Positions 2 to 6,256 of a DNA stretch of 6,256 nucleotides are shown one piece after another (the stretch's first letter is position 1; every line of letters begins with the position of its first letter). The stretch comes from JBFJWU01 sp041623475 [NCBI: bacterium] (GTDB taxonomy: Bacteria; J088). The stretch is taken from positions 1 to 6,256 of the forward strand of contig JBFJWU010000208.1 of NCBI GenBank assembly GCA_041623475.1. The letters run 5' to 3'. The notes under the pieces were generated by a model that made no database searches, was not told the origin of the DNA, and saw only the letters and a list, made by a program, of their open reading frames with translations. A program made the translations under genes and the position numbers.

Positions 2-61
2 CTGGAAGCGGCCGATGCGGCTGCTGTGGCACGGTTCTGTGAATCAACTGGGGATATTTAA
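2..61 (+). CDS. C-terminal tail of an unidentified gene (partial, 5' end outside window)
   Basis: This frame is open from the window edge and ends in TAA at 59-61, giving the last 19 residues of a protein (ending in FCESTGDI). The final A of the stop codon is the first base of the next gene's ATG (TAATG). This is the usual sign of translational coupling within an operon and the main reason to think the frame is real. The fragment is alanine-rich and acidic and has no recognisable motif, so no function can be given. It implies that the left-hand operon starts upstream of the window. Confidence 0.5.
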   Translation: MEAADAAAVARFCESTGDI

Positions 62-447
62 TGGTTCCGTACCTGCCATTTGAGCGGACCTGGGCCGAAG
101 CGATTCTGGTGGCGACGGTCCCGGCTGGCGAACGACACCCGGGACTGGGGGCAGTTTCGCTGGATCGTTTCTGGGATGTTTTTGGTCAAAGTGCGCCGTT
201 TTTGATGAAAATCGGTTTTCGCGTCGCGATCTGGTTTGTCGCCCTGCAGCCGATCTGGTCACTGTCCGGTTGGCGAACGTTTGCCGGCAGCAGCCCGGAG
301 GACCGCCAGCAGTCCCTGCAGGCCCTGAACAGCAGTCATCGCGCGATGACCGAGCAATTGCTGTCATTGATCAAGTTAATGGCGTGCTTCGCCTATTTCG
401 AGGATGCCGCTATCCAGGACCGATTTCGCTCGGCAGGCCGCAAATGA
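61..447 (+). CDS. Small protein coupled to a GMC dehydrogenase; candidate accessory (gamma-like) subunit
   Basis: This 128-aa protein starts at ATG 61, with GGGGA at 50-54 six bases upstream. Its stop TGA overlaps the ATG of the GMC oxidoreductase (ATGA, 444-447), which indicates coupled translation and near-equal expression. Visible features are a hydrophobic, aromatic stretch at about residues 47-69 (it includes IWFVALQPIW, with K50 and R54 inside), then SGWRTFAG at 69-76, and a helical C-terminal half with a second hydrophobic patch around LLSLIKLMACFAYFED (100-115). Small helical proteins in this position, such as the gluconate 2-dehydrogenase subunit 3 type or the gamma subunit of FAD glucose dehydrogenase, act as chaperone or electron-transfer partners of GMC catalytic subunits. 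The same type of region is fused to the N-terminus in some GMC proteins. No twin-arginine or Sec signal is visible, unlike the exported gamma subunits, so a cytoplasmic or membrane-surface complex is more likely. The subunit role is inferred from position, size and general character, not from a clear motif. Confidence 0.72.
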   Translation: MVPYLPFERTWAEAILVATVPAGERHPGLGAVSLDRFWDVFGQSAPFLMKIGFRVAIWFVALQPIWSLSGWRTFAGSSPEDRQQSLQALNSSHRAMTEQLLSLIKLMACFAYFEDAAIQDRFRSAGRK

Positions 448-1934
448 ATCGAATTGACGGGCGCAATATCAGTGCGCCGCTGGATCTGGAAACAGATGTC
501 GTCATCGTTGGCAGTGGTCCGGCCGGGGCTGCGGTTGCCCAAGTCGTTGCCGGATCCGGTGCCAGGGTTGTTGTTGTTGAGGAGGGACACTGGGTACAGC
601 CGGATGAGTTCCCGGTCGATGCCCTCAGTTCGTTTGCCCGCCATTATCGCGATATGGGAACAACGGTGATGCACGGTCCGGCGATGGTTCCGTACATCCA
701 GGGCCGGGCTGTAGGCGGATCTTCAGTTATCAATGGCGCCATCTGCTGGAAGTTGCCGCAGGATGTCTACGCCGGCTGGATTCAGAACGACCCGGGAATA
801 GAGGCGAACCTGGCCTGGGCGGATGTCTCCGCTGCGGTTGACCAGGTCGAGACGGACTTGAATGTCCAGCCGACCGCACCGGCAATTGCCGGTGCCAAGA
901 ATACCTTGCTGGGCAAAGGGGCTGAGGCGCTCGGACTGGAACACCGGCCGATTCGGCGCAATGTCCGTGGCTGCAAAGGATTGGGTCGCTGCCTGCAGGG
1001 CTGCCCCGACGGCAACAAGTTGTCGATGGACAGGTCCTTCCTGGTTGAATCCGAGCGGCACGGGGCCATCGTGGCCAGCGGGGTTCGGGTACTGCGGGTC
1101 ATCCGGCGGCGGGGAAAAGCGGTTGGCGTCATCGGGCGTTCAGAGTCAGGTCATCGTGTCAGGGTAACGGCGGGCCGGGCGGTCGTCCTGGCCGCCAGCG
1201 CCATCCAGACACCTGCATTGCTGAGGCGCAGTGGCATACGGCATGGCCCCGTTGGGGACTACCTGCAATGTCATCCCGGCGTCGCGGTGTCAGGCGAATT
1301 TGAGGAATCGGTCCGCATGTGGGAAGGCGCAACCCAGGGACACGAGGTGATCGGACTTCGCAGCGAGGGGCTGAAGTTCGAAGCACTCGGTTTCGGGATC
1401 GGTCTTTTGGCCGGCCGGTTGCCTGGTGTTGGAACAGACCTGGCACGGGCGATGGATCGAATCGATCACTATGCCAACTGGGGTGCCGCCGTCAGGGCGA
1501 CCGGGCAGGGGCGGGTTCGTCCATTCGGGTCCGGTGTCGTTGTACGGTGGGCTCCGACCCAACGTGATGTCCAACTGTTCAGGCGGGGACTGGTTGTGCT
1601 TGGCCGGATGATGTTCGCTGCCGGGGCGCGCTCAATCACCCTCGACGCGGCGGGATGGTCGCAGCCGATTTCAGACCCACGCAAGTTGGACCAATTTGAA
1701 ACCGAGGGACCGTTGCGCGCCTCAGCCTATACACCTGCGGCAACGCACCTGTTTGGCACCTGTCGTATGGGTTCGGATCCGCGTTCCAGCGTCGTGCGGC
1801 CGGATTTCCGGCACCACAGGGTGGATCGCCTTTATGTCGCGGATTCCAGCGTTTTTCCGACGAATACCGGTGTAAATCCGCAGATAGCTATCAGTGCACT
1901 GGCCACGCTTTGTGGCCGAAATATTGTGGCGTAA
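444..1934 (+). CDS. GMC-family FAD-dependent oxidoreductase (alcohol dehydrogenase type, Fe-S-like Cys motif)
   Basis: This 496-aa enzyme probably oxidises an alcohol (or a sugar or steroid hydroxyl) with FAD. An ADP-binding beta-alpha-beta motif GSGPAG lies at residues 23-28, with the ribose-binding acidic end VVVVEEG at 42-48. The GMC signature GRAVGGSSVINGA spans 87-99. The C-terminal domain has HLFGTCRMG (H435) and GVNPQIAISALA (N478), the catalytic His/Asn pair placed as in choline oxidase and cholesterol oxidase. C177, C183 and C187 form C-x5-C-x3-C within RGCKGLGRCLQGCPDG, the spacing reported for the 3Fe-4S ligands of Burkholderia cepacia FAD glucose dehydrogenase. This points to a dehydrogenase rather than an oxidase. 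I chose ATG 444 because it overlaps the upstream stop and places the FAD motif near the N-terminus. An in-frame ATG at 270 would add 58 residues that lie inside the coding sequence of the preceding gene. No signal peptide is seen. The family call is firm; the substrate is unknown. Confidence 0.93.
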   Translation: MNRIDGRNISAPLDLETDVVIVGSGPAGAAVAQVVAGSGARVVVVEEGHWVQPDEFPVDALSSFARHYRDMGTTVMHGPAMVPYIQGRAVGGSSVINGAICWKLPQDVYAGWIQNDPGIEANLAWADVSAAVDQVETDLNVQPTAPAIAGAKNTLLGKGAEALGLEHRPIRRNVRGCKGLGRCLQGCPDGNKLSMDRSFLVESERHGAIVASGVRVLRVIRRRGKAVGVIGRSESGHRVRVTAGRAVVLAASAIQTPALLRRSGIRHGPVGDYLQCHPGVAVSGEFEESVRMWEGATQGHEVIGLRSEGLKFEALGFGIGLLAGRLPGVGTDLARAMDRIDHYANWGAAVRATGQGRVRPFGSGVVVRWAPTQRDVQLFRRGLVVLGRMMFAAGARSITLDAAGWSQPISDPRKLDQFETEGPLRASAYTPAATHLFGTCRMGSDPRSSVVRPDFRHHRVDRLYVADSSVFPTNTGVNPQIAISALATLCGRNIVA

Positions 1935-4163: not shown

Positions 4164-4835
4164 TCAACACCACGACGCCTGGTTCAGGTTGTGGTCATCC
4201 AGCAATTCGCGGATGTTGGCTTCGATGATTTTGTAGCCGACGTTGCCGTACAGTTTCTGGCGACCGTGGTTCAGGACAAATGTGGGGCTGCCCTGAATCA
4301 GCTGGTCGTTCTTCATCTGGGCATCGTGCAATAGTGCGGCATAAGCGGCGCCGCTGTTCAGGTGCTCGCGAATCTCGTCACAAGGCAGGGCCAGTTCGGC
4401 GGCGATCTCGCCCTGGACTTCGCGCCGGGCGATGTTCAGGCCCTGCTCAAAGAATGCCTTGCGAAATGCGGTGATGGCTTCCTCAAAACGGCTGGGCCCG
4501 TCGGCGGGTTCGTCAAGGTCCAGCAGGCGGATGGCTGACAAGTACGTGTGGGTGGATGCCGATGTGGACGGTGGGTCGATTCGCCAGACGTTTGGATGGA
4601 TTTCAACATGGTCAAAATCGTGGTTCAGTTTCTGGACGTGGTCCGCGTAACCGTCTATCCCGCCCCGGTCCTTCCAGCCCTCGACAAATTTGTCGTGGGT
4701 ATTGCCGAACAGGGTCATGAATCGGTGTTCGAATTCGCACTGGTCGCCAAACTGGCGGCGGACTTCTTCCAGCTTGCGTTCGGCGATGTATGCCCAGACG
4801 CAGAGGATGTCGGAATAATAGGTGATATGGACCAC
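4164..4835 (-). CDS. DsbA-family thioredoxin-fold protein (2-hydroxychromene-2-carboxylate isomerase / FrnE-like)
   Basis: This 223-aa protein has the layout of the DsbA-like group that includes HCCA isomerase, kappa-class glutathione transferase and FrnE. A first beta strand leads to the active-site segment SDILCVWAY (8-16). A helical insertion follows, then the cis-proline loop GSPTF (182-186, P184) and the closing strand-helix with LYGNVGY (around 195-202). The active site is CVWA: C12 is kept but the second cysteine of the usual CxxC is alanine. It therefore cannot act as a normal disulfide oxidase and is more likely glutathione-dependent or an isomerase. No signal peptide is present, so it is cytoplasmic. 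I chose GTG 4835 because GGAGG (4842-4846) sits 6 nt upstream and the fold begins at once. The frame stays open to an ATG at 4991, but the extra 52 residues look unlike this fold. It is convergent with the P450 and divergent from the flavoprotein. Role in the pathway (ring-cleavage intermediate isomerisation or glutathione chemistry) is inferred. Confidence 0.85.
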   Translation of the reverse strand: MVHITYYSDILCVWAYIAERKLEEVRRQFGDQCEFEHRFMTLFGNTHDKFVEGWKDRGGIDGYADHVQKLNHDFDHVEIHPNVWRIDPPSTSASTHTYLSAIRLLDLDEPADGPSRFEEAITAFRKAFFEQGLNIARREVQGEIAAELALPCDEIREHLNSGAAYAALLHDAQMKNDQLIQGSPTFVLNHGRQKLYGNVGYKIIEANIRELLDDHNLNQASWC

Positions 4836-5028: not shown

Positions 5029-6256
5029 GTGAGCAAAGAAAAGTCATTTACGCCGACCCGCGCGATCGTGGTGGCGGATGTGCCCGGGTGGGATATCGAA
5101 ACAGATGTGGCCATCGTCGGGTTTGGTGGGGCAGGGGCGTGCGCGGCGATCGAGGCCGCTGATGCCGGGGCCAGCGTCGCCCTGTTCGAGCTGACCAGCG
5201 CCAGCGGCGGGTCGACGGCGCTGTCCAGTGCCGAGATCTATATGGGTGGCAATGGCGGGACACCGATTCAGCAGGCCTGCGGATTTTCGGATACGACCGA
5301 GGACATGATCAATTACCTGCTGGCCTCGATCGGGCCGCTGGCGGACGAGGAAAAGGTGCGGGCGTACTGCGAGGGCAGTACCGAACACTATGACTGGCTG
5401 GTGGGGCAGGGGGCCCGCTACAAGGAATCCTTTCATGAGCCACGGGCCGTCATGGCGCTGACCGATGACTGCCTGTTGTATACCGGCAGTGAAAAAGCCT
5501 GGCCGTTTGTCGATGTCGCCAAACCGTGCCCTCGTGGGCACAACCTGCAGGTCGAGGGCGACAACGGCGGGCCGCTGCTGATGAAGATCCTGACCGACCA
5601 GGTGGACGCGCGCGAGTCGATCAACGTCTACTACGATGCGCGGACCCTGTGCCTGGTGGTCGATGACGATCGTGCGGTCGTGGGGATCGTGGTGCGGATG
5701 GACCAGCAGGAGCATTTTGTCCGGGCCATTCGTGGCGTGGTCCTGTGCGCCGGCGGTTTTGTCATGAACCAGAAGATGGTCGCAAAGTTTGCGCCGCGCT
5801 TGCAGCTGGCATCAATGCCCATCGGCAATCCCGGTGACACCGGGACGGGGATCCAGATGGGGATGTCTGTTGGCGGCGCCGCGATCAATATGGGCGAGGG
5901 CTTTGTCAGCGTGCCATTTTATCCACCCGAGGATGTGACCAAAGGGATTTTCGTTAACGAGCAGGGGCAGCGGTTTATCAATGAGGATGTGTACCACGCC
6001 CGGGTTGGCGACGCGATCTTTAAACAGCCCGGCCAGCGAATCTATTTGATTGTCCAGGCCGAGGGCTTCAAGCGGCCACCGTACCTGAATGCCGATATCG
6101 CTGGCACCGGCGAGTCAATTGACGAACTGGTCGAGGACCTGGGGATGGTCGACACCGTGCTGGCCGAGACGCTGGCATTTTATAACCGGCAGGCGGCCGC
6201 AGGCAAGGATCCGCTGTTCCACAAGGATCCCAGGTGGCTGACGCCCCTGGAGCCGC
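5029..6256 (+). CDS. FAD_binding_2 flavoprotein, 3-ketosteroid delta1-dehydrogenase / fumarate-reductase-like (partial, 3' end outside window)
   Basis: The first 409 residues are visible and the frame has no stop to the window edge. GTG 5029 is the start, with AAGGAG (5017-5022) 6 nt upstream. Marks in order are: TDVAIVGFGGAGACAA (25-40), the FAD dinucleotide motif with G31, G33, G34 and G36; ALFE (51-54), the acidic end that binds the ribose; SGGSTALSS (59-67), the flavin-contact segment of this superfamily; VVLCAGGF (237-244), the second FAD contact; GDTGTGIQMG (269-278); and FVNEQGQRFINED (308-320), the start of the substrate-facing region. Family members add or remove hydrogens across a C-C double bond next to a carbonyl (fumarate, urocanate, 3-ketosteroids). 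The spot that holds the catalytic Arg of fumarate reductases appears to be Y322-H323 here, which argues against a fumarate reductase. No haem motif, signal peptide or flavin-transfer domain is seen in this part. A ketosteroid or related enone dehydrogenase fits the neighbours, but the C-terminal catalytic residues lie outside the window. Confidence 0.9.
   Translation, partial: MSKEKSFTPTRAIVVADVPGWDIETDVAIVGFGGAGACAAIEAADAGASVALFELTSASGGSTALSSAEIYMGGNGGTPIQQACGFSDTTEDMINYLLASIGPLADEEKVRAYCEGSTEHYDWLVGQGARYKESFHEPRAVMALTDDCLLYTGSEKAWPFVDVAKPCPRGHNLQVEGDNGGPLLMKILTDQVDARESINVYYDARTLCLVVDDDRAVVGIVVRMDQQEHFVRAIRGVVLCAGGFVMNQKMVAKFAPRLQLASMPIGNPGDTGTGIQMGMSVGGAAINMGEGFVSVPFYPPEDVTKGIFVNEQGQRFINEDVYHARVGDAIFKQPGQRIYLIVQAEGFKRPPYLNADIAGTGESIDELVEDLGMVDTVLAETLAFYNRQAAAGKDPLFHKDPRWLTPLEP

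Follow-up and report, generated by a model that had tools for sequence, protein, structure and literature searches.

A predicted cytosolic Fe-S dehydrogenase of the GMC family encoded with a small helical partner and a lipocalin-like protein

Three genes on the plus strand of the window (by which we mean the whole 6,256-nucleotide stretch of DNA analyzed here) look like one operon, comprising a small partner gene (61-447, an ORF of 128 aa), the gene for a GMC-family FAD dehydrogenase as the catalytic subunit (444-1934, 496 aa) and the gene for a third component (1953-2540, 195 aa). We surmise, with a probability of roughly 0.6, that these genes specify a cytosolic heteromeric Fe-S GMC dehydrogenase for a hydrophobic alcohol, in which the catalytic subunit would work together with the small partner and a lipocalin-like barrel protein; in this scheme, the Fe-S cluster, the substrate and the electron acceptor are what we infer. 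The original prediction had confined the feature to 61-1934, and the two-gene pair in that interval is real, but the interval misses the third gene of the operon.

Results

Gene layout

The stop of the small gene overlaps the start of the GMC gene by 4 bases, with the GMC start lying inside the small-gene stop (ATGA, 444-447, plus strand), and the third gene begins 18 bp past the GMC stop, preceded by AAGGAG. Beyond it, a 105-bp gap (2541-2645) sets off the cytochrome P450 gene (2646-4028, plus strand, recognized by Pfam and a PDB match) and is the probable end of the operon. This gap contains a promoter-like site (2574-2603) ahead of the P450 gene, which we regard as weak since the window has 4 promoter-like sites, two of them an overlapping pair in the gap, vs. 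a shuffled mean of 2.6. Further downstream are a minus-strand gene (4164-4835, found with Pfam; its start is our choice) for a DSBA-like thioredoxin-fold protein with weak similarity to FrnE, and the gene for an FAD flavoprotein (5029-6255, plus strand), which is open and runs off the window.

The cysteine motif of the GMC protein

The GMC protein, homologous to the large subunits of Burkholderia cepacia glucose dehydrogenase (BcGDH) and of fructose dehydrogenase (FDH), carries the Pfam domains GMC_oxred_N (PF00732; E 1.2e-42, 146.6 bits vs. a cut-off of 23) and GMC_oxred_C (PF05199; E 1.5e-22, 81.1 bits vs. a cut-off of 24.6). Among its cysteines (residues 101, 177, 183, 187, 276, 440 and 490), C177, C183 and C187 (codons 972-974, 990-992 and 1002-1004, plus strand) form a C-x5-C-x3-C motif, a pattern seen anywhere in the protein in just 14 of 20,000 shuffles. 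In phmmer and profile alignments, these three residues fall gap-free onto C212, C218 and C222 of 6a2u/8hdd, which PMC6719666 gives as the three 3Fe-4S ligands of BcGDH. The likeness in cysteine spacing to FAD glucose dehydrogenase, from which the original prediction started, is thereby extended to a one-to-one match with proven ligands, and we consider C177/C183/C187 to be predicted 3Fe-4S ligands. H435 (codon 1746-1748, plus strand) and N478 (codon 1875-1877, plus strand) are likewise aligned to His476 and Asn519 of BcGDH, probably its catalytic pair according to PMC6719666, and are the predicted catalytic residues here. All five positions (C177, C183, C187, H435 and N478) are invariant in 23/23 aligned sequences. 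The best NCBIfam scores of the protein were to two GMC relatives, MftG (TIGR03970) and bacterial cholesterol oxidase (NF058674); at 82 bits vs. a curated cut-off of 387.45 and 72.9 bits vs. 850, respectively, it is far below both.

Conservation of the pair

Relatives were collected in two ways. A scan of genome contigs yielded 22 relatives with 49-61% identity, all from MAGs, whose titles name Myxococcota, a Myxococcota group or Deltaproteobacteria in 12 cases and Binatia, Dadabacteria, Oligoflexia, proteobacteria or just 'bacterium' in the others. In a search of 188 genomes from one phylum, 46 matched at E≤1e-140 (24 of these with at least 695 bits), and loci were taken from the best 30 rows only. 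From both searches, 42 rows were picked by GMC score, window included, with the duplicates L043, L044, L045, L046 and L049 as well as L090-L095 left out of the counts; they form an ortholog clade with a support of 100/99. The C-x5-C-x3-C motif is found in 42/42 rows of this clade, and the small gene lies directly upstream of the GMC gene in 42/42 (L006 and L012 are cut by contig ends), with the 4-base overlap in 37/42.

Seven genomes contain a total of 39 non-ortholog GMC rows, of which we analyzed 20; in this sample, mostly of better-scoring rows and thus under-sampling ordinary GMC enzymes without the motif, the motif was present in 19, and all 20 had a small-partner match either immediately upstream or sharing the open frame (weak in L024 and L033). 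Because paralog partners were absorbed during iteration, the scores of the iterated small-subunit profile are self-inflated, and the independent support for the small partners of paralogs is their position beside the GMC gene. The paralog without the motif (L036) still has a small partner. At L089:2181-3107 (G003:C89), a GMC paralog is split exactly within the C-x5-C-x3-C motif by a 309-aa intein-like insert, which has Cys first and VTGN last before a Cys, the residue after the insert being the second predicted cluster ligand; the insert was not recognized in Pfam, NCBIfam or PDB searches, and its label is read from its anatomy.

The small partner protein

The AF2 model of the small protein (pLDDT 91.8) is all helical. 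Its top VIA match is 8jej_B, the FDH small subunit (Z 5.3, rmsd 4.4, 96 aligned), a match that is weak on its own because Cre recombinase, the next unrelated fold, follows closely with a Z of 4.7; Foldseek returned no match at E≤0.001, and the gamma subunit of glucose dehydrogenase is absent among the VIA matches listed, an absence that excludes nothing. At the level of primary structure, the small protein of the window has no match in Pfam, NCBIfam or PDB and is below the Pfam cut-off for Gluconate_2-dh3 (PF13618), whereas its relatives do match that family: 13 of 63 aligned partner proteins at E≤1, with a best value of 2e-8, and 1 of 21 members of a closer alignment (E 0.11). These matches of relatives make a stronger link than the model match. 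We regard the small protein as a probable relative of the 'hitchhiker' (gamma) small subunit that lacks a signal; kinship with the small subunits of glucose and fructose dehydrogenases is likely, given both PF13618 and the FDH model match. The family profile A1 had no PDB match, and two other sets of matches were judged to be chance, namely five PDB matches to family profile A4, the best being protein A repeats (E 0.0074), and three single-member NCBIfam matches among the 63 partner proteins (best E 0.037).

Export signals

In the small protein of the window, RR is absent from residues 1-60 and hydropathy at the N-terminus is weak, and an in-frame TGA at 40-42 leaves just 18 bp ahead of the ATG of its gene; therefore, no signal has been overlooked upstream. 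As judged by a simple regex on N-termini, Tat-like matches occur in 1/42 rows of the clade (L009, where the match lies inside the domain) vs. 8/26 outside the clade. Among the latter, the match of L069 is doubtful, as in L009, and clear twin-arginine signals are found in seven paralog partners (L027, L034, L035, L037, L038, L040 and L041); in L023 and L026, a stretch at the N-terminus is hydrophobic but contains no RR. The partner thus lacks an export signal, as had been proposed, and the absence of such signals in the window and its clade supports an intracellular setting at the level of sequence.

The third protein

The third protein has no Pfam family match, and a Pfam search with 15 members of its family gave two families at E 0.26-0.29, which were judged to be chance. 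Its AF2 model (pLDDT 87.4) is a lipocalin-like barrel, as exemplified by the top VIA match to 4mve (Tcur_1030 of Thermomonospora curvata; Z 10.8, rmsd 3.9, 137 aligned, 14% identity). The next VIA rows are beta barrels at 7.5 or below, including many lipocalins and nitrophorins at 6-7, and the top Foldseek rows are lipocalins as well (best E 5.1e-3, none at E≤0.001).

The third gene adjoins the pair in 20/42 rows and is fused in 5 of those 20, with 'fused' referring to a single open frame that no stop interrupts, in DNA that is GC-rich. The third protein shares one open frame with the GMC protein in L008 and L010, which belong to one lineage, and in L021 on another branch, while in L059 and L063 it shares a frame with the small protein. 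Genes of the third family also adjoin GMC paralogs in L025 and L089. Because the third protein is fused to either partner, we surmise that the three proteins work together where all are present. The two-component description given originally is therefore right about the pair but leaves out a gene that is fused to one or the other component in 5/42 rows.

Near the other 22/42 rows, no third gene was found; two of these rows, L009 and L055, are truncated by contig ends. Two genes of the third family (L087:3325-3915 and L088:2727-3445, the latter broken by stops) are not accompanied by a GMC gene within roughly 3 kb; L087 comes from genome G011, in which the third-family gene is on another contig than the operon, and that operon lacks a third gene. 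The genes at L022:824-1333, L009:4112-4618 and L020:6882-7403 lie directly upstream of the small gene and encode proteins (about 170 aa) that by eye resemble one another, contain hydrophobic stretches and are not matched in Pfam; the third gene is missing in L020 and L022, and L009 is cut by a contig end.

The genomic neighborhood

The best PDB match of the window P450 is CYP120, followed by lanosterol 14-alpha demethylase. The flavoprotein at 5029-6255 has as its closest PDB entry 4at0, a 3-ketosteroid-delta4-(5alpha)-dehydrogenase (9.9e-87), and scores 561.9 bits against NF005510 (cut-off 481). Among relatives, FA_hydroxylase genes adjoin the operon at L001:3187-3777 and L011:10216-11121, and, according to Pfam, GntR regulators are encoded immediately upstream in L004, L011 and L013, with GntR-like proteins in L005, L018 and L019 by eye. 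No neighbor common to most relatives names a substrate or an acceptor, and neither the window nor the 22 related loci contain a called gene with at least three CxxCH. We favor a hydrophobic substrate because of the 3-ketosteroid-dehydrogenase-like flavoprotein, the CYP120/CYP51-like P450 and the FA_hydroxylase neighbors; perhaps it is a steroid or a terpenoid, the hint to this coming from the neighbors in this window alone.

Discussion

The closest points of comparison are the solved Fe-S members of the GMC family matched here, which are sugar dehydrogenases. With the alpha and gamma subunits of BcGDH (6a2u, 8hdd), the operon products share the GMC fold, the C-x5-C-x3-C ligands, the His/Asn pair and a small helical partner. 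However, there are several differences: 1) the window enzyme has K178 at the position of Cys213, the residue described in PMC6719666 as disulfide-bonded to the small subunit of BcGDH; 2) it apparently has I96 at the position of His105, a residue to which FAD might be bound in BcGDH according to PMC6719666, this correspondence coming from a negatively scoring part of the alignment that a VGG motif anchors; 3) the operon has no Tat signal, its surroundings yielded no gene for a multiheme cytochrome c, and it includes a lipocalin-like protein. The GMC protein also resembles FDH of Gluconobacter japonicus (7w2j, 8jej, 8k6j), with residues 176-312, including the cysteine motif, matching residues 215-359 of the large subunit in a profile comparison, and the FDH small subunit heads the matches of the small-protein model. 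FDH, in contrast, is a membrane-bound complex by its entry title, while the operon and its 22 relatives have no called gene with three or more CxxCH nearby. As for the third protein, it shares the barrel fold with Tcur_1030 and lipocalins at a low identity to 4mve and outside any Pfam family. In our searches of the open-licence literature, we found neither a description of the three-gene form nor a paper on GMC enzymes and lipocalins together. Given that there is no Tat signal, no nearby cytochrome gene and no disulfide cysteine, we do not file the operon with the exported Fe-S dehydrogenases, even though it would operate like their alpha and gamma components.

We envisage the following scheme for a cytosolic enzyme. 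The GMC subunit would oxidize a hydrophobic alcohol at FAD using H435/N478, and electrons from FADH2 would reach a surface 3Fe-4S cluster on C177/C183/C187 and from there an acceptor inside the cell, in place of an attached multiheme cytochrome c; this acceptor should be intracellular because there is no cytochrome subunit and no export. The small helical protein would bind the catalytic subunit beside the cluster, where it may shield and stabilize it in the manner of the small subunit of BcGDH, which PMC6719666 describes as a Tat hitchhiker on which folding and secretion depend, with the distinction that the protein of the window has no Tat signal. The lipocalin-like protein, on the other hand, may deliver or hold the hydrophobic substrate or product. 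In a more specific form, which we advance tentatively and would not bet on at even odds, the enzyme is a cytosolic complex of three subunits in which the barrel hands over the alcohol, the hitchhiker protein serves only to stabilize cluster and flavin, and export occurs only in other branches.

The role of the barrel is where a different view carries the most weight. One may argue that the Fe-S GMC dehydrogenase has two subunits, with the lipocalin-like protein being a separate pathway enzyme, carrier or regulator and not a subunit, as would agree with the 22/42 rows near which the third gene was not found and with the L087 and L088 copies (the latter broken) that lack a GMC neighbor within roughly 3 kb. 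Fusion to the GMC protein on two branches and to the small protein on yet another, together with third-family genes next to GMC paralogs in L025 and L089, speaks against such independence, and we deem it unlikely, albeit worth keeping in mind.

It was also suggested originally that the enzyme acts on the product of the adjacent P450, an idea that differs from our preferred reading in the substrate and is otherwise compatible with it. The two genes do adjoin in the window and are both on the plus strand, but tblastn at E≤1e-2 found no relative of this P450 across the 22 related loci (some flanks are short, the shortest locus being 3.6 kb), and the 105-bp gap with its weak promoter-like site separates the P450 gene from the operon. 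Coupling to a P450 as a conserved feature was accordingly rejected, the idea is without support because of the missing P450 relatives, and we consider it improbable for the window enzyme.

As several solved GMC relatives are oxidases, one could alternatively view the three cysteines as structural or redox residues that hold no cluster, in an oxidase that uses O2. This is very improbable in our estimation, considering the one-to-one alignment with proven ligands, the invariance of the three cysteines in 23/23 sequences and of the motif in 42/42 rows, and the small partner that accompanies all 42 rows as in known Fe-S members. A periplasmic DET-type complex like BcGDH, with a signal peptide or cytochrome subunit missed by us, would share the ligand motif, the His/Asn pair and the small partner, and seven paralog partners do have clear Tat signals, yet we find it scarcely credible in view of the stop codon lying in frame 18 bp ahead of the small gene, which leaves no room for a signal, the sole Tat-like match among 42 clade rows falling within the domain, K178 in place of the disulfide cysteine and no called multiheme cytochrome near the 22 relatives.

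For the cytosolic enzyme that we favor, the implications concern both of its presumed partners. A clade in which the small partner accompanies the catalytic subunit in 42/42 rows with no convincing export signal offers a test of whether the basic job of this subunit is cluster protection. The lipocalin-like partner, in turn, suggests that hydrophobic alcohols may be oxidized by soluble Fe-S dehydrogenases operating without an attached cytochrome subunit.
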